From: Candidatus Obscuribacterales bacterium
GTDB lineage: Bacteria > Cyanobacteriota > Vampirovibrionia > Obscuribacterales > Obscuribacteraceae
Assembly (NCBI GenBank): GCA_020050835.1
Contig: JAGVKB010000142.1
Coordinates: 124,001-188,000 of the forward strand
Length of the DNA: 64,000 nt
Reading direction: 5' to 3'
Part shown: one piece after another, positions 8,613 to 62,245 of the stretch
Position numbering within the stretch: the first letter of the stretch is position 1
Layout of the letters: every line of letters starts with the position of its first letter
Program-made: the position numbers and the translations under genes
The notes under the pieces: model-generated
The model's database searches: none
What the model was told of the DNA's origin: nothing
Seen by the model: the letters and a program-made list of their open reading frames with translations, nothing else

Positions 8613-8813
8613 CAATCGAAGAAGAGAAAGCGCTTGCCGATCGAACGGGCGGCTGCCAGAGCCACATCTCGATACAATGCCATTTCCCTTGCAGCTGATC
8701 GTTGCCAGTGAGCGCGCCGCCAAGGAGATTTGCCAAGGCTGTCGAAAAACTTAACAGCCCGTATACATACGCTCAGGCTGGTTCCGTACATTCCCAATTC
8801 GAGGTAGAACGAG

Positions 8814-11800
8814 ATGGGAGATCTGAGACAGCCAGACTCTTTTGACGCCCAGTTACCATTCCAGAATCCGCTCGAGACTCCAGCTCAATCAAGGCCGGCG
8901 GACAGACCGGTAGGACAGCTACCAGCCGGCGATTGGAATCAAGCTCTGACGGCAGAGCAGCTAAGACAGCAGCAAACTTCGGGCGATAAATTGCCCGGTC
9001 TCCAGATTGCGGCTGCCGAAAGAAATGCCGGGCAGACAGCGGCACCGACCGATGGAAAAGAGCAAGTAAGACCAGTCGGGCAACTGCCGGCCGGTGACAT
9101 TAAACCAGCGTCTGTCTTGGACTTTCGTCCGCAGCCACAACCGGCCGGCGACCAACCGGTTAATCAACAATTTAAAGCAGGCGACCAAAAGGTCTTTGCA
9201 GCCGTCCCCAACGACCAGGCTCAGAAGCCAGGCGACCGCCCGGCTGCCACGCTTAAACTTGAAGACGCAAAAACCGTCCAGATGGTACTTTCCACCCTCA
9301 AAGAGTTGCAGGGAGCGCTCGGAATTACCGATGAGCGCATGACCAAGATTGAAGCCGAGCTCAAAAAAGGTGAGTTCGGCGCAGAAACACGCAAGGCATA
9401 CAATGCAGCGGCCAGAATGCTGGAAAACCATGTAATGGGAAATCTGGTGCTTCTAGACAGCCGGGGCGTCGAGATTCCGGCTGGTTGTCCGCTGGAACCA
9501 CCAACCGATCCCAGAAGCGGCCGGCATATCATGCCTGAATGGTATCGGGCCCAGTTGCAGAACGGCGATTTAAAATTGAAACTCACCGTCGGTGAAGACA
9601 AAGTTCCAACTACTCAAGAAGTAGCCCAATTGCGCGCAGCAGGCATCTGGAGCACGCGAGCGATGTCACTCTTGGAGTCGACGATCATTCACTCGAACGC
9701 CGCCCGCATCGAATCTCAAATCAAAGAGATGAATTTCGAGGGCCGTTTCAACGGCTGGCTGCCGAAAAAGGACATGAGCGACCACGAAAAGGAGCAGTGG
9801 ACTTATGCTGCTCAAAGCTGGATGAACCAGTGGATTCAAGTCAGGAACTATGCTCACTCAATCGCCCAGCTCAATGTCGCCACTCGCGAAAGCACTAATC
9901 CGGACAAACTTTTCGGCATCACGGTTCCGAAATGGACATCCATTGCACAACAAGTATTCTCCGATCAGGCTCTCAAAGATGAGAACTTTCCAGGAAAGGT
10001 TGTTCGTGACGAAAAGGGAAACATCAAATCAATCGCCATCGACATACCCAAAACACTCGAGCGAACCGGCGAGAATCTCGAACAGATGCGAAAGCTGGAA
10101 AAGTGGCTGGAGAAGTACGGACCGCAAGTAGATCAACTCATGAAGGAAGTGGCTCTGGCAGCCTCCAAAGAAGGGCGCGTCCTTGGTTGGATGGATGTCC
10201 CGGTGGAGGGCACGATCAAACCGGACGGTTTCAATGTCACCGTCATGAAGAAGGAATCAGACCAACGCGGCGGGTTTGTCGAAGTGCCGGTGATGAAGCA
10301 GCACTTCAACAGCGAAGTCGAAGCAGAGAAGGCTTTAGCCGAGCTCAAGAAGCAGTTTGCAGACAAGCCCGAGATGACAGTCACCAAGGAGAAGAACGAC
10401 AAAATTGACTTTTCTCCCAATCCAGGTTTCTTGCTCGGTGGACGCAAGCTAGCCGAGGGAGAACAAGAATTCAATCTTAGAGAATTCCGCTTTACGGCAA
10501 AAGAAGTGCAAAAAGACGGACAAAAAATGATCGCCGTCACTAGCACTCAGAAGTATCAGTACTCCTGGTGTCCCTATGATCTGATCGCCAGCGACAAGAA
10601 GACTACAGTTTCGGGCACCGAGCAGCAACCGGTCTATTACAAGCCGGACGATTGGTTAGTGGTAATGGATGCCGGGCGCACAATGATGATGCAAGCGAAG
10701 AACTTGCCTCGCTTCGAAACCGAGGGAGCTTCCTGGCATTACGGCATGAAGGGCGCAACCATGGCGATGGATGTCGGCTTTATTGCACTCGGAGGATTCG
10801 AGGGCGCGGCCATTTGGCGAACAGCTGCCAAAGAAGCGACGGCCCAGGGTGTGAAGATGGCGGTCAGCACCGGCATAAAAGAGATCGCGCTCAGCCGTGC
10901 CAGCTGGCACGGCTTTTTAGGCGTAACCGGAGTGATGGGACGGCCAATCGAGGCCGGCTTTGGTCACTACGGACACGAATTCATGAAGTATCGCAGCTAT
11001 GCGATGCTCGCAGACATCACAATGAACACTCTGCCGCTCGGAGATTCCCTGCGAAAGGCCTGGGCAGCCTCGCGCGGTGCGGCCTTCGTCGAGCGCCAAA
11101 GCGCTGTCAAATCGTTGCTGGATGCAAGCAAGCTTCATTCAGCCACACAATGGGGACTGTTTGGAACTGAGATCGTGATGATCGGAGACATTCTCGGCAA
11201 GGCGATTCCGGACATGCTGGCCCAAACCAAGGCAGAGAACTTGAGCAAACAGATCGAGCAAGCCAAGCAGTATCGCGGACCGGCCTTTTCACCTGACACT
11301 CCGACCATGCTCAAGGTGGACTCGTTAATCAAGGAGACGGAGAAAGTCAAAGCGCTCGAAGCCGGCTCGGCAAAGCGCAAGACAGAAGAAGCTGCCCTTA
11401 CGAACCGCCTTACCACAAGCTTCCTCGACAGCAAGAATCCCGAAGAGAGATTGGCTGCCGGTTTGGCTTTGATTAGTCTCAAGGGCAAGCAAGGTCTGCT
11501 GGCAAGCGAAGTGATCGGGCAGCGCAACATTGAAAAAAAAGTAGAGAACATAACGCTCGGCGATGTCCAAAAGTTTCTCTCGCAATATCAGCGCAATCAA
11601 CTCGGCTCCCTTCTAACTCAATATGATGCGCAGCTGTCGGTCAAAGCGCCCGAGCTCTCTCTCAAGCGAACAGCGGAGCTCTTGGCGCAACCGGAAAACA
11701 GCCCGGAAAGACAGAAGCAGACTGAAAAACTATCCGAAACTTTTAATCAACTCAAACGGATGGAAGACAAGGTCGAAGAGCTTCAAACTGCACTGGAAAA

Positions 11801-53421: not shown

Positions 53422-55437
53422 TCAAAATGGGCTTTCCTTTGCGCTTTCAGCCTGAACACCGAGAGTCGCCTGCGGTTGTGACGCCTTCAATTTCGCCGAA
53501 ATTGTCGCGAGGCCTCTTCGATCTCCCAGGCTTTGATAGTTGAAGCTCAGATCTTTCAAAAGCTTCACAATCTGCTCGCTCTTGTCGGTAGCGTCGCTTC
53601 GCTCGTAGAGTTGTAGCGCTCGCCTCAGCAATGGAGTAGCCTGAGCATACTGTTTCTGACGTTGGCGAACCAAAGCCAAATTCCGCATGGTTGTGGCTAC
53701 CTGTTGGTTGGACGGTTTCGCAAGTTTCTTCATAACATTCAACGACTCCTGGAACCGCTTTCCGGCGCTGCGATAGTCCTTTAAGGCGAACTCGGCAGTC
53801 CCCAGGTCGCTCAAATTAAGGGCGACGGACAGACTGTTATGTCCGTCGCCTTGCTCGGCCTGCGTTACCGCCCTTAACAGGTAACTCTGAGCTTTACTGA
53901 AATCCTGCAGATGAATCAGACACGAGCCGATTCCGGCATTGATGCGAGCAAAGCGACGTACGGTCTCTTTACTATTGTGATCAAACTTTCGGTAGCCGGC
54001 TTCAGTTAACAGCTTCGCTGCCACCTCATATTGTTCGGCAGCCTGCTTGTACTCGCGCCTGGCAAACAATCGGTCGCCCTTCTCCACACTGCTGTCGCTA
54101 CTGCGGATTGATGCTACCTTGATGTATTCCATTGCCGAATCGGTCGAACCGCTTACACCGGTTTGCGTCGCTTGCTCAGCGGCAGGTGGAGCATGGTTAG
54201 CGTTTAGAATCACCGGATAAATGTTAGCCGAAGCGATCACTATCAAAGCACACACTATCGGCAGCTTGGCCTTCCACCCAGATTTCTTCGCGCTACCGCG
54301 GCCGCTGGTTGACACCGCTGACGATACCGCTCCGCCTGCCGGCTGGCGCTGGCCGCTCGCAGCAGATCCAGCCGCCTGCCCATGAATGTTGCGGTAGCTT
54401 TGACTGCCTGCCCTACCGGTAGTCAACTGAGCGCTGTCAATCCAAGCGGGAAGCGGCCCGCTGTTTGGAGTGGTGCTGCCAGGCAGAACCCCAAGCGGCG
54501 GCAGTGCCAGCGGCTCAGCCGGAGCATGATCGAGATCCGGCAGAGAGCTCAGCGGCAATGTCAGCAGATAGCGCAAGATCCTTGCCAATTGGCGAATCTC
54601 CGTTGATTGATGCTGTTCCAGCGTTGCAAATGCGAGCGATCGCCCCGGATCTGTGAAGTCCGCCTTACAAAAAAGTAAACACTCGTCGCCGCCGCCCAGC
54701 AGTCGCCACAGCGCAGGATCGATGCCGACACAACGCAATGAGACATAGACAACCCAGGCCGCGAAGTGATCGAGATAAGGTCCAAAATGATCTTTGGTGC
54801 GTCCCGGATGCTGATAGTTTCTATGACCGAGCTCGTTGCTACCCAGCCCAGCCAGAGCTGGAACATACATACCATCATAATCGACAAGCTTAAAATCATT
54901 ATTGCAAACCAGAACGTTACCGTGCTGTAAGTCACAATGAGCGATGCCGCACTCCATCAGGCGCCGCATCATCAGCCTCCACTTCTCAGCATACTCCTCG
55001 AGACAAGCCCGATTGAACAGATTGCTCTCGATGAACTCGTTCAAGTGCTGACCATCAGTCCATTCCATCTTCAATATTGGATACCAGCGGCCGTAAAGCA
55101 AGATGCCTTCGCTCAAGAAATCGAATCGAACCGTGTACGGCAAATCAGCTATGCTCAAGTGCTCACTGATTCGCAGATAACGTTCCTGTTGATCAGCAAA
55201 GTTGCGGAGAAAGCAGCGGACCGCCCAGTCCTTTTCTTTGCATTGAACTCTGTAAACGCTGGCGAAGGCACCCGTAAAAGGTCTCGGGAGGCCATGAGCG
55301 GTCAAAGTTGGCTGCCCGGACTTGAGTTCCTGGTCGGAAAAACTGAGGTCCGAGTTCTGGACGGCTTCATTGTAGTCCTGCGGGGTGGGCCACGACAGTA
55401 TCTTGATTGAGCTCGTTTGTCTCTTCGTCTCTGCCAT
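53422..55437 (-). CDS. Receptor-like protein kinase with TPR sensor domain (downstream copy)
   Basis: About 671 residues. Kinase-like domain at 35-290: GAFASVYRV (Gly loop), then WAVRCF where kinases have VAIK, so the ATP-binding Lys is Arg. The HCDLQHGNVLV catalytic loop (about 164) and VDYDGMYVP (about 181, in place of DFG) keep the catalytic Asp, Asn and metal-binding Asp. A transmembrane helix lies at about 392-412, followed by TPRs (about 450-650). The predicted topology is kinase inside, TPR outside. The frame begins at GTG 55452, but ATG 55437 follows a GGTGGA site and is preferred. A paralogue lies 37 bases upstream. The vWA and PP2C-like genes lie nearby on the opposite strand. Confidence 0.85.
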   Translation of the reverse strand: MAETKRQTSSIKILSWPTPQDYNEAVQNSDLSFSDQELKSGQPTLTAHGLPRPFTGAFASVYRVQCKEKDWAVRCFLRNFADQQERYLRISEHLSIADLPYTVRFDFLSEGILLYGRWYPILKMEWTDGQHLNEFIESNLFNRACLEEYAEKWRLMMRRLMECGIAHCDLQHGNVLVCNNDFKLVDYDGMYVPALAGLGSNELGHRNYQHPGRTKDHFGPYLDHFAAWVVYVSLRCVGIDPALWRLLGGGDECLLFCKADFTDPGRSLAFATLEQHQSTEIRQLARILRYLLTLPLSSLPDLDHAPAEPLALPPLGVLPGSTTPNSGPLPAWIDSAQLTTGRAGSQSYRNIHGQAAGSAASGQRQPAGGAVSSAVSTSGRGSAKKSGWKAKLPIVCALIVIASANIYPVILNANHAPPAAEQATQTGVSGSTDSAMEYIKVASIRSSDSSVEKGDRLFARREYKQAAEQYEVAAKLLTEAGYRKFDHNSKETVRRFARINAGIGSCLIHLQDFSKAQSYLLRAVTQAEQGDGHNSLSVALNLSDLGTAEFALKDYRSAGKRFQESLNVMKKLAKPSNQQVATTMRNLALVRQRQKQYAQATPLLRRALQLYERSDATDKSEQIVKLLKDLSFNYQSLGDRRGLATISAKLKASQPQATLGVQAESAKESPF

Positions 55438-55474
55438 CACAAAGCGTTCCACCTAGCAGTCTTTCATCACGCCC

Positions 55475-57580
55475 TTACTTCGGCTGCACTGCGCTGATTG
55501 AATCATTAATCTTCTTGATTTGCCCTTCTAAGCTCCGGACATTAGCTTTGTCTCCCAGCCGCCGATATAGATCGCGCAAGTGCGTCAGGCTCTCGATGCG
55601 CTCCTGTTGGTCAGCAAGCGGATGACTCTCGTAAATTGTCCAGGCTCTAGCGAGCTGTTGTCTGGCCGAACGATAATTGCGAAGCGTCATGCTGCAATCA
55701 GCGAGCTTTTCCAGGGTGGCAGCTGTTCGAGGATCGGTGCGGCCGAATACTTTTTCGTCAATTTTCAGCACTCGTTTATACAAAGAATTAGCGAGTTGCG
55801 GTCGCTCATCTCGCTGACAGAGTGCGCCAAGGGCAGTCAAAACATTAGCCGCCTCTTCACTGTCAGCCCCTTTGATCTGCTCGAATGAGCTCAGTGCCTT
55901 CCGGTAGCTTTGCTCCGCTTCTCTGAAATGCGAAAGCTCAGCGTAGCAAGAGGCCAAACCAGCCAGGCTGTTTGCATAGGTGATCGTTCCGCGCTCGCCC
56001 TCCTTCTCTAGCGCCTGCAGGGCCTTACGATAGAGGTCGGCAGCTTTCGCGTAATTGCCCTCATTCAGAAAGATGCTTGCGCCCCCAAGGTATTGCCTTG
56101 AAGTTAAATCAGCGCGACTGTACTCGTTAATACTTTGCACTACTTGCGGTGGCGCACGCTCTGTGATCGCGGTTTGCACAGGCAGCTGGCTTACAGTGTG
56201 CGAGCCAGCAAAGATGAGCAACAACAATACCGCAAAGCTCACCAGACTCGCCAAACCACGATGCCTGCTTTGCCAATCGAAAACGCGACTCCACACGCGA
56301 TCCAAGTAGCCAAACTTCGAAGGCTCGGCGAAGTTCGGCAGTTCAAACTTGGGCTGCGGTTGAACGCCGCTAGCTGATTGAGGCGATCGAACAGCATTAT
56401 TGGTAGCACTATTGGTGCTCATCATCCCGATACCTGGACCGACACCGGTTTGCTTACCGCCAGGAGTCATCGCCGCTCTGGCAGCTGCTCTTCTTGCCTT
56501 TCTCGCTTCGCCTCGCGCTTTCTTGCCCCGCCGGTTTCGACCGCCGACGCTGCCAGTTGAATCAATCTTGCCATCGGCTCGCATCCAGTCCGGCAATCCG
56601 GAGCCATCCGAAATTGAAATCGGAATCGGTAAGTCCAGCTCAGGTAACTGGACCGGAACCGCCAGCGTCGAGCCAAGCACTGGTACCTGGCTGACAGGCA
56701 GTGTCAGGAGAAAGCGCAAATAGTGTGCCATCGTCCTGATCTCCATCGAAGCATGATGCTCGAGCCGAAAAAATGCCCGCGAGCCCAGCGGATTCACGAA
56801 ATCCCGCTGCCTGAAGAGCAAACACTCGTCTCCACCATTAAGCTCCTGCCAGAGCCCGGCATCTATGCTCAAGCACCGAAGCGAAATGTAGACAACCCAA
56901 GCAGCGAAGTTATCCAAGTACGCACCAAAATCAGTCTTGGATCGCGCCGGATGCTGATAATTCCGGTGTCCAAGCTCGTTACTTTCGGTGCCAGCCAAAG
57001 CCGGAACATACATGCCATCATAGTCCACGAGCCTCAAATCTTGCCCACATACAAGCACGTTGCCGTGCTGCAAGTCACCATGAGCGATACCAACCTGCCG
57101 AAGCTCCAAGATCATTTGTTTCCACTTCTCAGATAACGTAACAAGTGCGGACTGGTCGTGAACGTTGAGCTCAACATACTGACTTAGCTGCAGCCCTTCG
57201 GCCCAAGCCATTTTGAGAATCGGATACCATTGCCCATGCATATTTACGCCATTTTCAAGGAAGTCAAAGGCGACCATATAGCGCAAACTCTCAAACTTGA
57301 GTTTTGTACTGATTCTGGCGTAGCGCTCGCGCTGATCCGCAAAATTGTGCAAGAAACAACGTAGAGCCCAGTCCCTTTGCTCGCACTTGACCCGATAAAC
57401 ACTGGCAAACGCACCGGAAATCGGCTGCGGCAGCCCGAACTGATTTAGTACAGGCTGCCCGCCTTTGAGGTCCGGGTCATCAAATGCAGTAGAGATATTC
57501 TGGACAGCCTCGTTGTACTCTTGTGGAGTTGGCCAGTGCAAGATTTTAACTGAAAGTGCTTGTTTATCTCTCTGATACAA
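55475..57580 (-). CDS. Receptor-like protein kinase with TPR sensor domain (upstream copy)
   Basis: This 701-residue paralogue of the next gene shares KILHWPTPQEYNEAVQN at the N-terminus, GAFASVYRV, WALRCF (Arg for the usual Lys), HGDLQHGNVLV (about 162) and VDYDGMYVP (about 181). Between kinase and membrane is a basic Arg/Lys/Ala segment (about 345-370) absent from its sister. The transmembrane helix is at about 439-458, with TPRs at about 490-690. The start codon is TTG at 57580 with GAAAGG just upstream; no ATG is available. The same kinase-vWA-PP2C grouping occurs in E. coli yegI/yegL/yegK. It is divergent from the histidine kinase gene, with 154 bases between. Confidence 0.84.
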   Translation of the reverse strand: MYQRDKQALSVKILHWPTPQEYNEAVQNISTAFDDPDLKGGQPVLNQFGLPQPISGAFASVYRVKCEQRDWALRCFLHNFADQRERYARISTKLKFESLRYMVAFDFLENGVNMHGQWYPILKMAWAEGLQLSQYVELNVHDQSALVTLSEKWKQMILELRQVGIAHGDLQHGNVLVCGQDLRLVDYDGMYVPALAGTESNELGHRNYQHPARSKTDFGAYLDNFAAWVVYISLRCLSIDAGLWQELNGGDECLLFRQRDFVNPLGSRAFFRLEHHASMEIRTMAHYLRFLLTLPVSQVPVLGSTLAVPVQLPELDLPIPISISDGSGLPDWMRADGKIDSTGSVGGRNRRGKKARGEARKARRAAARAAMTPGGKQTGVGPGIGMMSTNSATNNAVRSPQSASGVQPQPKFELPNFAEPSKFGYLDRVWSRVFDWQSRHRGLASLVSFAVLLLLIFAGSHTVSQLPVQTAITERAPPQVVQSINEYSRADLTSRQYLGGASIFLNEGNYAKAADLYRKALQALEKEGERGTITYANSLAGLASCYAELSHFREAEQSYRKALSSFEQIKGADSEEAANVLTALGALCQRDERPQLANSLYKRVLKIDEKVFGRTDPRTAATLEKLADCSMTLRNYRSARQQLARAWTIYESHPLADQQERIESLTHLRDLYRRLGDKANVRSLEGQIKKINDSISAVQPK

Positions 57581-57734
57581 AGGCCTTTCAACCTGTTTGA
57601 TCTAGAAAGGAGACCTGCGTTAACACCTATTGTCCTTTTACCCAGGTTGCGCTAGTTATATACTTTGAAGGCAAGGCCAAACGAGATGGAATCTTAAGCA
57701 GCCAGTTCGAACGCGGAGCATCCGGCAGTAACGA

Positions 57735-59207
57735 ATGCAGATAAAGTTCAGTCTTTCCCATAAGGGATTAATTCTCGTAGCGGTAGTCCTGGCATTCGAG
57801 CTCCTCTTTGTCGGAGCTCTTAACTCGATGTTGGCCGAAGCCGAGCAGGTAGCGGCGAAAGAGAGTCGATCGAAGGAGATAGTCGGCAAGACCAATCACA
57901 TCTTTCAACTCTATGACGACGAGGTACGGACCGTACGCGCCTTTCAGGATGCTGGATATTCAGGGCACGAACATGCAGAAAGATTCTTCAACGATCATCA
58001 AAAATTGATCGAAGAGGCAAGAGCCTTATCACAGCTAGTGCATGACAATCCAGCGCAGATCAAGACAGTGGAGAGCATTGAACACAGTGCCATTGATCTA
58101 AATCGAATCCTGACTAAGGGATTCGAACTCTTCGAGAGCAACCGTCCTGGAATTGGAGCAGCCTATATAGAGCACTGCAAACCCGATATCTACAAGGCAA
58201 AAAAGAATCTCCAAAACGGACTTCAACAGTTGATGACCGCCCAAGAAAAAATTATTGCGGAAAGCCCGGCAGCACAAGCTCATGCTAGACAGGATCAAAA
58301 GAAGCTGCTGCAGGTCGGCATTCTCTTGAACATCCTTTTCACCTTGGCTCTGGCATTATTTTTTGTCAGAGGTATCACCAGCCGAGTCCAAATGGTGGCA
58401 ATCAATTCATCCCGTCTGGTCAGAGGGCAGCCGCTCAACCCGCTGATCAAAGGCTCCGATGAGATTGCTGAACTAGACAGAGTGTTTCACGAAATGGCCG
58501 ATGCCCTTACAGAAGCAGCTCGACTCAAGCAAGAATTCGTTGCGATGATCAGTCACGACCTCAGAACGCCACTTACCTCAGTGAAGGGGTTTCTCCACCT
58601 TCTTTCACAAGATGGCTATGGCGCTGTTCCACAAAAGGTCAAGGACCGGACTCAATTGGCAGAGCGCAATGTGGCCAGATTAATCTCCTTGATCGATGAT
58701 TTGCTGGCAGTAGAGAAATTGGAAGCCGGAAAGCTGGACATAAGCCCCGAACTGATTCCGCTCTCTCCGGTAATTTCGCGCTCGGTCGAAGCTGTGCGAG
58801 TATTTGCCGAGGAGCACGCTGTAAGCCTTCAGGCAGAACCAGTCGAAATAAACGTCTTCGCGGACGGCGACCGTCTAGTCCAGGTATTGGTAAATCTCTT
58901 ATCCAATGCCGTCAAGTTCTCACCGCCCAACAGCGTCGTTATGGTATCAGTACACGAGCAAGACGATTGGGTAGAACTGCGGGTAACCGATAGCGGCTGC
59001 GGCATCCCAGCCGATCATCTTGAGTCCGTGTTCGACCGATTTAAGCAAGTACGAGCCTCAGACGATCGAAAGAAGGGCGGCACTGGACTTGGTTTAGCTA
59101 TCTGCAAATCGATCGTCGAACAACATGGTGGCACCGTTGGTGTCACAAGCCAGGAGGGCAAGGGAAGCACCTTCTTCTTTCGCATCCCCACCAGACAGAC
59201 TCCGTAA
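57735..59207 (+). CDS. Membrane-bound sensor histidine kinase
   Basis: The 490-residue protein has transmembrane helices at about 8-28 and 196-216 enclosing a helical extracytoplasmic sensor domain with no recognised fold. A HAMP linker follows (about 217-262). The HisKA box MISHDLRTPLTSVKG gives phospho-acceptor His274. The HATPase domain shows NLLSNAVKFSP, DSGCGIP and GGTGLGLAI motifs. No response regulator is adjacent, so its output is unknown. It stands between the divergent TPR kinases and the co-directional vWA/PP2C pair, 160 bases before the latter, and may feed into that system. That link is inference from position. Confidence 0.93.
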   Translation: MQIKFSLSHKGLILVAVVLAFELLFVGALNSMLAEAEQVAAKESRSKEIVGKTNHIFQLYDDEVRTVRAFQDAGYSGHEHAERFFNDHQKLIEEARALSQLVHDNPAQIKTVESIEHSAIDLNRILTKGFELFESNRPGIGAAYIEHCKPDIYKAKKNLQNGLQQLMTAQEKIIAESPAAQAHARQDQKKLLQVGILLNILFTLALALFFVRGITSRVQMVAINSSRLVRGQPLNPLIKGSDEIAELDRVFHEMADALTEAARLKQEFVAMISHDLRTPLTSVKGFLHLLSQDGYGAVPQKVKDRTQLAERNVARLISLIDDLLAVEKLEAGKLDISPELIPLSPVISRSVEAVRVFAEEHAVSLQAEPVEINVFADGDRLVQVLVNLLSNAVKFSPPNSVVMVSVHEQDDWVELRVTDSGCGIPADHLESVFDRFKQVRASDDRKKGGTGLGLAICKSIVEQHGGTVGVTSQEGKGSTFFFRIPTRQTP

Positions 59208-59367
59208 CCGAAATTGACCATCCGAGCTACAGCTTGACAGTCTACAACCGGGTTGCCAAGCGCGCAAAGCGATGCCGCATGAATTAACTGATTTTGCTAC
59301 TCTTTCAAATAACATTCTCGTATTCGTATCCTACCTGTCAGCCAACTTTCATGCAGGACTTCTCCCC

Positions 59368-60210
59368 ATGCCATACCAAGCCGAAATAAGCCGCTCCAAT
59401 CCTTCTTGCATACTTATCCTGATAGACCAGTCCGGCTCGATGGACGATCCGTTTGGAGCCGCTCCAACCGGAAAGAGAAAATCAGACGGCGTTGCCGATG
59501 CTGTCAATCGTCTGTTACAGAATCTAGTGATCAAGTGCGCGAAATCGGAAGGGATTCGAGATTACTATCACGTTGGCGTGATCGGCTACGGTGAGCAAGG
59601 AGTCTTCCCGGCTTTTGCCGGTCAGCTAAAAGGTAGACAGCTAGTGCCAATCAGTGAGGTTGGCAACAATCCGGCGCGAGTAGAGGAGCGGACGAGAAAA
59701 GTTGAAGACGGCGCCGGCGGGCTGATCAATCAGAAGATCAAATTTCCAATCTGGGTTGATTCGATTGCTAAGGGCGGAACGCCAATGTGCGAAGGGTTAC
59801 GACAGGCGAAGTCAATCATCTCGAGATGGCTATCTTCACACGCAGACTGCTTTCCGCCAATAGTGATGAACATAACGGACGGTGAAGCAACCGATGGGGA
59901 CGCGACTACTTCAGCGGACGACATCAAGTCAATGTCCAGCTCCGATGGCAATGTACTACTCTTCAACCTCCACATTTCTTCCTCGAACCACGCCCCGATT
60001 GAATTTCCCGATCTGCCAGATGAATTGCCTGACGATTATGCCAAGCTACTCTTTCAGATGTCGAGTCGGCTGCCAGACTACATGTGGATGATGGTTCAAC
60101 AAGAAGGGTTGATAGTCTCGGAAAATCCGAAGGGCTTCGTCTTCAATGCTGACCTTGTCTCTATAATCAGATTTCTCGATATCGGCACGCGTCCAAGCAA
60201 CCTAAGATAA
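59368..60210 (+). CDS. von Willebrand factor A domain protein (TerY/YegL-like)
   Basis: About 280 residues, essentially one vWA domain without signal peptide or membrane helix. The metal-ion-dependent adhesion site is complete: LIDQSGSM (DxSxS, residues 19-26), GGTPMCEGL supplying the Thr near 138, and NITDGEATDGD with the Asp near 171. Such cytoplasmic vWA proteins bind partner proteins through a bound Mg ion. The frame is open to 59272, but ATG 59368 follows AGGA and starts just ahead of the domain. The PP2C-like gene begins 13 bases after the stop, so the pair is an operon, as in yegL/yegK-type sets. Confidence 0.88.
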   Translation: MPYQAEISRSNPSCILILIDQSGSMDDPFGAAPTGKRKSDGVADAVNRLLQNLVIKCAKSEGIRDYYHVGVIGYGEQGVFPAFAGQLKGRQLVPISEVGNNPARVEERTRKVEDGAGGLINQKIKFPIWVDSIAKGGTPMCEGLRQAKSIISRWLSSHADCFPPIVMNITDGEATDGDATTSADDIKSMSSSDGNVLLFNLHISSSNHAPIEFPDLPDELPDDYAKLLFQMSSRLPDYMWMMVQQEGLIVSENPKGFVFNADLVSIIRFLDIGTRPSNLR

Positions 60211-60223
60211 TGGTAAAGACATC

Positions 60224-61009
60224 ATGCGCGTGACCTGCGAAGCGTTCTGGCTTCAGAAAGACGGTTTAACTGCCGACGAATACGAAGATGCCTTTTCCTA
60301 TTACCCGCAAGATTCTCATATCACAGAGCACAACCGCTTTCGATGCACAGTAACGGACGGTGCAACGGAAACATCGTTTTCAGCGCTATGGGCACAATTA
60401 TTGTCCGAAGACTACTGCAAAAATGGAGAGCTAGACTTGCCAAAATTGCAGCACATTTGGAGCGAAAGCGTTGCTCAACGAAAGCTCGCCTGGTATGCAG
60501 AGGCAAAGGCCAAGTCTGGAGCATTCGCTGCTCTGGTTGGGCTAACACTTACGCCGCCACCGGCAGACCACTATCACCCGGGACTATGGCAATCCTGGGC
60601 TCTCGGAGACAGCTGCCTGTTCCATGTTCGCGATGAAACTATCCTACAAGCGACTCCGCTCGACCGCTGGGAGCAGTTCAATAACAGCCCGTTTCTACTT
60701 TCTAGTAATGCCGATCAAAATTCAACCGCAGCCAGCAAAGCCGTGATTGCGACAGGAACCTGGCACTCTGGCGATGTGTTCTATTTGATGACAGATGCAA
60801 TATCTTGCTGGTTTCTAAGGCGCCAAGACGAACAGGGCGATGCCGTTAAATTGATTACTAACATAGTAGATCAGGAATCACTCTCAACTCTGGCCAAAGA
60901 ACAGCGAACCAAACTGGATCAGAACGGGCACCGCTTGATGCGCAATGATGACATCACGATCATGCGAGTCCGTCCACTGGCCGCTGTGATCAAGCACCGT
61001 CCTGAATGA
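60224..61009 (+). CDS. PP2C-type Ser/Thr protein phosphatase
   Basis: A 261-residue protein with the PP2C metal-binding pattern. CTVTDGATETSFS near residue 44 supplies the first Asp-Gly, SWALGDSCLF near 125 is the central strand motif, GDVFYLMTDAIS near 185 carries the next Asp, and RNDDITIMRV near 245 is the final Asp-Asp. The DGATE(S/T) variant is that of phosphatases grouped with vWA proteins and kinases. It probably reverses phosphorylation by one or both TPR kinases encoded on the opposite strand. There is no strong ribosome site, so translation is likely coupled to the vWA gene. It converges on the zinc-ribbon gene with 16 bases between stops. Confidence 0.85.
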   Translation: MRVTCEAFWLQKDGLTADEYEDAFSYYPQDSHITEHNRFRCTVTDGATETSFSALWAQLLSEDYCKNGELDLPKLQHIWSESVAQRKLAWYAEAKAKSGAFAALVGLTLTPPPADHYHPGLWQSWALGDSCLFHVRDETILQATPLDRWEQFNNSPFLLSSNADQNSTAASKAVIATGTWHSGDVFYLMTDAISCWFLRRQDEQGDAVKLITNIVDQESLSTLAKEQRTKLDQNGHRLMRNDDITIMRVRPLAAVIKHRPE

Positions 61010-61025
61010 GAATTGCAGACTAGAC

Positions 61026-62150
61026 TCATCCAGCGAACACCAGTTTGACCAGTAGTGGCGTCACATAAGCAACAATCTGAGCAGAGCTGACCGGCAGAGC
61101 TTGCCAACAAGCATTCAGCAACCTGCCACCACCCCACCGAACTCGATCAACTTGACACCAATAAGTAGCTAGATAACTTTGTAGATATTTTCGGCTGATT
61201 CCATGAAAGTTGTCGCGTACAGTTTCGATGAAAGCTTCAACCCCACGTCGTACTTCCTTAGAGGGATAAGACTCTCCCTTGCTGCTGCCATCACCCGTGC
61301 CCACAAGCGCTCGCCTCCGGAGTACATACCAATCGCCAGGCCGGCGGACAGCAGCTTCCGCCAGCTCTAACATAGTTAAGGCAGCTGACAATTCGCCTAC
61401 CGGCATTTGACTCATTTCAAGCAAGCTATCCACGTGCAGCGGAGATGCGGATAAATACGAAAGCACCCTCAACTCAACTGGTTGCAGTCCACCAAAATCG
61501 CTGTCAATCATGAGTTTGCCTGGTGAAGCCTCAACGGTCGCCATCAAACTTGCTTTCAATGTTCCAGTATCTTGCGAATCTCGCAGACCCTGCTGGACTG
61601 ACCTAACATCTGCACCCTCCTGCCTGACGGACAAAGATTCAGCGCACTGTTGCTCGATAATATCTTGCTCCGACCGCGGATGAGCATTTGCAGGAGTCTC
61701 CCGACTGCGTTTCGAAAACAGAACAGAAAACAGCCCAGATGGAAGTGATTCATCCACATTCATGTGGACAGCAATAACCGCAGCAATTTTGCGAAAGATA
61801 ATGAGCGCAGTCGATTGAGCGATCCCGACCAACTGATGAAATCGCGAAGAACTCACAAGCAATCCATGGTCCATTAGCCATATTGCTGCAAGCCACGGTC
61901 TGGTTCGTCTTACCCTTTCGAACAATGTTCCGGTAGTAAACGATACTTGTCTCCTACAAACAACACACGTGAGTACTCTCTCACCATATGTTCGCTGATA
62001 GCTCCTCATTCCACATTTCTTGCACTGCAATCGCCGCTCTGATTTGGAAATGTTGTACAACTCTTCAATACAGTCCTCCTCTGTCGGATACAGCTTTTCG
62101 AACTGCACCCAAATGCGAACAAGAACATCGTCCTTTAAAGACTTTGCCAT
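61026..62150 (-). CDS. Transposase-derived zinc-ribbon protein with a DprA-like winged helix
   Basis: About 374 residues. The N-terminus (about 15-115) resembles the IS1595/ISXO2 transposase zinc ribbon and following helices: YPTEEDCIEELYN, CKKC...CVVC, and SFTTGTLFERVRRTRPWLAAIWLM. The C-terminus has a GISRKYLQSYLATYW segment like the end of those transposases. Between them, where the DDE catalytic core should be, lies a polar stretch and a winged helix (about 215-275: LQPVELRVLSYLSASPLHVDSLLEM) resembling the DprA C-terminal domain. I see no DDE triad and no terminal inverted repeats, so this looks like a domesticated DNA-binding protein. ATG 62150 is chosen after GGAGG; GTG 62156 is less likely. 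It converges with the PP2C-like gene. Confidence 0.75.
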   Translation of the reverse strand: MAKSLKDDVLVRIWVQFEKLYPTEEDCIEELYNISKSERRLQCKKCGMRSYQRTYGERVLTCVVCRRQVSFTTGTLFERVRRTRPWLAAIWLMDHGLLVSSSRFHQLVGIAQSTALIIFRKIAAVIAVHMNVDESLPSGLFSVLFSKRSRETPANAHPRSEQDIIEQQCAESLSVRQEGADVRSVQQGLRDSQDTGTLKASLMATVEASPGKLMIDSDFGGLQPVELRVLSYLSASPLHVDSLLEMSQMPVGELSAALTMLELAEAAVRRPGDWYVLRRRALVGTGDGSSKGESYPSKEVRRGVEAFIETVRDNFHGISRKYLQSYLATYWCQVDRVRWGGGRLLNACWQALPVSSAQIVAYVTPLLVKLVFAG

Positions 62151-62245
62151 ACCCACCTCCTTCGCTTACCACTTAGTTCGACGGAACTCGCACGAAAAAA
62201 GTTCAAAACTCTTAAGTCTCTCTCTTCTTCTTTCGAAGGCAACAC

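Follow-up and report, generated by a model that had tools for sequence, protein, structure and literature searches.

The 64,000-nucleotide stretch of DNA analysed here, which we refer to as the window, belongs to a 7.0 Mb assembly in 154 contigs of Candidatus Obscuribacterales bacterium, a member of a group of non-photosynthetic cyanobacteria, and contains a locus that is probably a variant of the TerY-P switch specific to this lineage and built on membrane receptors, with several receptor kinases and one TerY/PP2C pair. The locus encodes homologs of the 3 TerY-P components in close linkage, and its kinases are duplicated and combine a transmembrane (TM) segment with TPR repeats. TerY-P triads are known chiefly within anti-phage and tellurite/stress modules, and their mechanism is unsettled.

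All 5 open reading frames that the initial annotation had placed at 53422-61009 were found at these positions. Two receptor-type kinases are encoded in tandem on the minus strand, KA of 676 amino acids (53422-55452) and KB of 701 amino acids (55475-57580), with the KB gene located 22 bp upstream of the KA gene, which ends 9 bp away from the convergent cysS gene. These are divergent to the plus-strand genes for the vWA protein TerY (59368-60210, 280 amino acids) and the PP2C phosphatase (60224-61009, 261 amino acids), and the gene for HK, a histidine kinase of 490 amino acids with 2 hydrophobic segments (57735-59207, plus strand), is located in between. The reading frame of TerY is open from 59272, but the start was set to 59368 because the homologs open with MPYxAEISR, and counted from this revised start the distance from HK to TerY is 160 bp. 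Translation of KA is likely to start at M6, at 55437. The gap of 154 bp that separates KB from the divergently oriented HK gene (57581-57734) contained a weak promoter-like match at 57637-57664 on the plus strand, which was no stronger than matches in shuffled sequence, and the promoter and terminator sites identified in the scan were no commoner than in shuffled sequence.

The kinase-TM-TPR architecture proposed for KA and KB was confirmed. Both proteins matched the PADLOC STK_OB profile (2.8e-74 and 1.3e-78) over its kinase half only, ending at about position 290 of 562, with the match covering residues 20-307 in KA (54532-55395) and residues 15-303 in KB (56672-57538). Each contained a single strong hydrophobic segment between the kinase and the TPR part, at residues 397-415 in KA (54208-54264) and 442-460 in KB (56201-56257), and the Pfam model TPR_12 scored above its cut-off in both (at about 53533-53949 in KA and 55487-56116 in KB). 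In the AlphaFold model of KB, after a confident kinase domain at about residues 15-300, residues 319-425 formed a disordered linker, 441-457 a TM helix and 489-698 a set of 10 helices with pLDDT values mostly above 90, corresponding to about 5 TPRs. The fold of this TPR part was nearest to the TPRs of the kinesin light chains KLC1/2, with target TM-scores of up to 0.84. A PDB sequence search with the kinase alignment yielded solely TPR proteins among the matches listed.

The TPR tail, which the initial annotation had placed outside the cytoplasm, is predicted to be extracytoplasmic from the presence of one TM segment and from the positive-inside charge pattern, with 5 lysine and arginine residues before and none after the segment in KA, and 3 before and none after in KB. 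In the kinases of some relatives, the charge pattern around the TM segment was not clearly positive-inside.

The catalytic residues were examined in 18 aligned kinases from these loci. The β-3 lysine is replaced by arginine in KA and KB and invariantly so in the alignment, whereas Asp169 of the HxD motif, Asn174 and the metal-binding Asp186 are invariant and the glycine-rich loop is mostly so. In most kinases, activity is lowered or abolished by arginine at the β-3 position, and the kinase activity of KA and KB is thus uncertain, which speaks against their role as signaling receptors. The kinase domains might instead be pseudokinases that serve as membrane scaffolds for TerY and PP2C, with the TPRs as an assembly platform, as could be suspected from the invariant arginine and from the Pfam Pkinase scores of KA and KB, which were below the cut-off. 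We consider this rather improbable, given that the other catalytic residues are retained, that the PP2C has kept all its metal ligands and would be idle if there were no kinase, and that the kinase YegI of E. coli has been described as active despite missing conserved motifs. Within the family, OB-type and zinc-ribbon kinases were also found to have arginine at the β-3 position, while others have lysine, and since the OB-type kinases of canonical triads carry it, the substitution is a family trait.

TerY matched PADLOC PDLC02224 (4.1e-107) over positions 1-277 of 277, and the complete MIDAS that had been noted earlier was present as DQSGS, GGTPM and NITDGE. The PP2C matched PDLC02222 (9.1e-30) and has retained the metal-binding residues D22, D45, D191 and D243, which were invariant among 24 relatives; its predicted model, with a pLDDT of 92.9, matched PP2C phosphatases such as RsbX, SpoIIE, tPphA and PstP. 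The Pfam matches were weak and below the cut-off, with E = 0.01 for PP2C_2 and 0.004 for vWA. The PP2C was missed in a Pfam PP2C_2 search of its own genome, and its assignment as a PP2C-like phosphatase, in agreement with the initial annotation, is therefore based on the match to the PADLOC profile, the conserved metal ligands and the predicted fold. No TM segment was found in either protein, and TerY is inferred to be cytoplasmic.

The locus thus encodes a TerY-type vWA protein with a MIDAS, an adjoining PP2C and a linked kinase of the triad family, in the TerY-PP2C order of the TerY-P triad, which has been defined as TerY, PP2C and a serine/threonine kinase (PMC4978471). The kinase in the TerY-P system of Anantharaman et al. 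2012 is described as having a C-terminal zinc ribbon (PMC11090510, PMC4978471), and in the antiphage form of Gao et al. 2020 as having an OB-fold (PMC11090510). Neither domain was present at the C-terminus of KA and KB, which have TM-TPR in their place; the OB kinases of co-directional triads at 2 control loci, L131 and L133 (Calothrix plasmid, G078), in contrast aligned to the STK_OB profile up to positions 537 and 411 of 562, and carry the identical β-3 arginine. From the 3 PADLOC matches, with STK_OB restricted to the kinase half, we conclude that kinase, TerY and PP2C make up the core of a TerY-P triad, with the OB-fold or zinc-ribbon tail exchanged for TM-TPR; because a tail of the usual kind is lacking, the locus is a variant and not a canonical member. 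It also differs from the triad in that the kinase is duplicated and divergent rather than co-directional, and in that restriction or DNA-processing genes were absent among the neighbors, which are housekeeping genes in a chromosomal position common to a second genus.

TM-bearing kinases encoded beside PP2C and a stand-alone vWA protein have a precedent in actinobacteria, where kinases that carry either a zinc ribbon or TM helices are described near GAP1-N2 systems (PMC7159879). However, this set is tied to GTPase-centered conflict systems, and its description there does not mention a TPR kinase. The literature searched contained no description of the TM-TPR form of the triad from a chromosomal lineage.

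The E. coli genes yegI, yegK (pphC) and yegL, to which the locus had initially been related, also form a cluster of kinase, PP2C and vWA genes, and YegI has been reported to be membrane-bound, to autophosphorylate and to be dephosphorylated by PphC (PMC13232886). A direct comparison of the proteins ruled out this cluster as a model for the locus, since YegI, PphC and YegL matched none of the STK_OB, PP2C and TerY models and showed no usable similarity to the proteins in the window (BLASTP E values of 0.35, 0.71 and 0.004, respectively). The suggestion that the architecture is unlike the E. coli form was borne out; the E. coli system has no TPR.

The TerY protein was identified in 30 of 53 Obscuribacterales genomes, as compared to 8 of the 385 other genomes in the phylum sample (about 2% of the other Cyanobacteriota). 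A total of 41 TerY loci were counted in the order, including L081, L086 and L093, where TerY was hidden beneath an overlapping open reading frame. A divergent kinase gene was located upstream in 27 of these and co-directional kinase genes downstream in 4, whereas a divergent gene for a TPR protein was found in 10. Since a kinase was linked to TerY in 31 of the 41 loci and PP2C was the gene immediately after TerY in 29, the linkage is not due to chance, and the co-occurrence that the initial annotation had proposed as a check was recovered as a conserved neighborhood. At the 10 loci with a TPR protein, which all belong to sister clades, a soluble protein with neither a kinase domain nor a TM segment takes the place of the kinase. 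A TPR protein that partners TerY can therefore reside in the cytoplasm, which counts against the receptor interpretation.

The TerY phylogeny placed the window in a clade of 11 loci from 6 genera (UFBoot 98, SH-aLRT 96), all of which had a divergent kinase upstream and PP2C downstream. The kinase contained a TM segment at all 10 intact loci, the gene being broken in G005. A TPR signal was detected in the kinases at 6 loci (the window, G021, G029, G030, G050, and G051), whereas those in G024, G025, and G027 had little beyond the TM segment, with a tail of about 20 to 40 residues. The TPRs are thus not universal even in the clade of the window, and both their absence from these 3 genomes and the broken gene in G005 speak against a receptor. 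The left flank, YebC-RlpA-GltX-CysS followed by the kinase and TerY-PP2C, is common to the window and G005, and in other relatives the locus adjoins a superoxide-dismutase-like gene. The shared flank and the 11-locus clade favor vertical inheritance in the chromosome over a mobile defense island.

These patterns also bear on the possibility that the locus provides anti-phage defense as stand-alone TerY-P modules do, and that its membrane receptor would detect phages as they attack the envelope. The 3 protein families correspond to PADLOC defense models (PDLC02222-02224, the best profile matches for all 3 proteins), and stand-alone TerY-P-like modules have been described to protect against phages (PMC11090510; PMC10889362). 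However, we recognized no nuclease, helicase or other effector and no defense or mobility genes at the locus, the nucleic-acid-binding OB and zinc-ribbon tails are missing, and the conserved neighbors in 2 genera are gltX-cysS. Considering also that TerY in the window falls within a single clade, and that the same genome carries a separate triad in a defense-like setting on contig C94, a role in defense seems unlikely.

The initial annotation had included HK as a component of a cluster with no unrelated gene, but HK is better seen as a bystander. The family (about 490 amino acids) is very large: all 29 of the 29 scored candidates in this genome belonged to it, giving at least 29 paralogs, and matches were found in 50 of the 53 genomes of the order. 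It adjoined TerY at 1 of the 11 loci in the clade and was not located beside TerY in the relatives. The position of HK between KB and TerY, together with an OmpR-type response regulator that fills the corresponding kinase-TerY gap in G029 and G030, could be taken to mean that two-component and serine/threonine signaling converge at the locus. Given the 160 bp that separate HK from the true start of TerY and the many family members elsewhere, we consider this very improbable, and the OmpR-type regulator may be in the gap by chance.

The gene downstream of PP2C (61026-62156, minus strand), a relative of which is located beside PP2C in G023, was likewise rejected as part of the module, as its family is multicopy, many genomes giving several to about 20 matches. 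It was noted that this gene and one at 8729-9889 of locus L101 encode an N-terminal IS1595-type zinc ribbon and a DprA winged-helix-like domain, and that several relatives contained about 20 matches to the family.

The tandem duplication of the kinase gene, a feature of the initial annotation, was real and recurrent among the relatives. The kinase tree paired KA with KB (SH-aLRT 86), and the tandem sets in the window, G021, G050-G052, and G019 were of separate origin. The C-terminal parts of duplicated kinases have diverged far more than the kinase domains, with identities in the kinase and C-terminal parts of 90% and 21.5% in G051, 88% and 42.5% in G021 (one pair), and 61% and 24% in the window; between orthologs with kinase identities of 86% to 93%, the tails were 47% to 53% identical. 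A recent excess of tail divergence in KA and KB was not supported, because the divergence did not exceed that of orthologs at equal kinase distance, and this is a further point against the receptor interpretation. As judged from the sequences, the pattern of duplication fits, without proving, that multiple receptors feed one TerY/PP2C pair. Same-family kinases not linked to TerY were also identified, and single genomes contained as many as 20 scored copies; those at L125-L127 and L130 (G017, G016, G049, and G018) had about 1,000 to 1,200 further residues, and the one that was scanned, of 1,441 amino acids, showed a weak TPR signal, while others were about 600 amino acids.

In the receptor-type switch that we favor, KA and KB would be single-pass kinases with a cytoplasmic kinase domain and a TPR domain outside the inner membrane that binds a peptide or protein. 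Binding of a ligand to the outer TPRs would change the state of the kinase, which would phosphorylate itself and/or the cytoplasmic TerY. By analogy with vWA proteins in general, TerY might act as an adaptor or output hub with MIDAS-dependent binding of partners, and PP2C would remove the phosphate and reset the switch, as the logic of the triad and the action of PphC on YegI suggest. With one TerY/PP2C pair common to several receptor copies, duplication and divergence of the outer part would add inputs to a single output.

More tentatively, an anti-phage or stress switch may have been domesticated in Obscuribacterales into envelope-sensing receptors that share one cytoplasmic TerY/PP2C hub. 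Such receptors would retain the kinase domain while the outer one is altered, as a possible bacterial analog of receptor families that converge on one adaptor. A chromosomal lineage that lacks the nucleic-acid-binding tail and has gained a receptor separates the core of kinase, TerY, and PP2C from its input, and thereby makes the role of the core testable. The input part appears to be exchangeable, and may be an OB-fold, a zinc ribbon, a TM segment, TM-TPR, a second kinase, or a TM segment on PP2C.

Other TerY loci showed different arrangements. In the genome of the window, genes for ZorA-like and ZorB-like proteins (PADLOC, 3.5e-24 and 1.5e-43) were located directly before a co-directional operon on contig C94 (L098, 6222-15328) with the gene order TerY, PP2C, kinase with zinc ribbon, kinase with TM segment, and kinase. 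This arrangement was repeated at L096 (G030, contig C198), and a ZorB-like gene was located upstream at L100 (G023, contig C233), at a contig edge. The gene content of these loci suggests that a TerY-P triad has been joined to a Zorya motor, a pairing for which nothing was found in the literature search.

Five loci from one clade (L076-L079 and L083) contained a gene for 1,044 to 1,049 amino acids before TerY, and the copy that was scanned encoded methyltransferase-like and aminotransferase class I/II domains. The conjugative plasmid pREC4 of Acaryochloris marina (L132, 7001-11641) contained genes for TerY, PP2C, and a kinase with a TM segment near residue 409 and a long tail that looks helical, possibly a receptor-like triad kinase that originated separately. 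Finally, 3 loci in other Cyanobacteriota (L136, L137, and L138 in G100, G147, and G130) encoded TerY, a PP2C of 510 to 552 amino acids with one TM segment and a soluble kinase, and the membrane anchor is thus located on the phosphatase.
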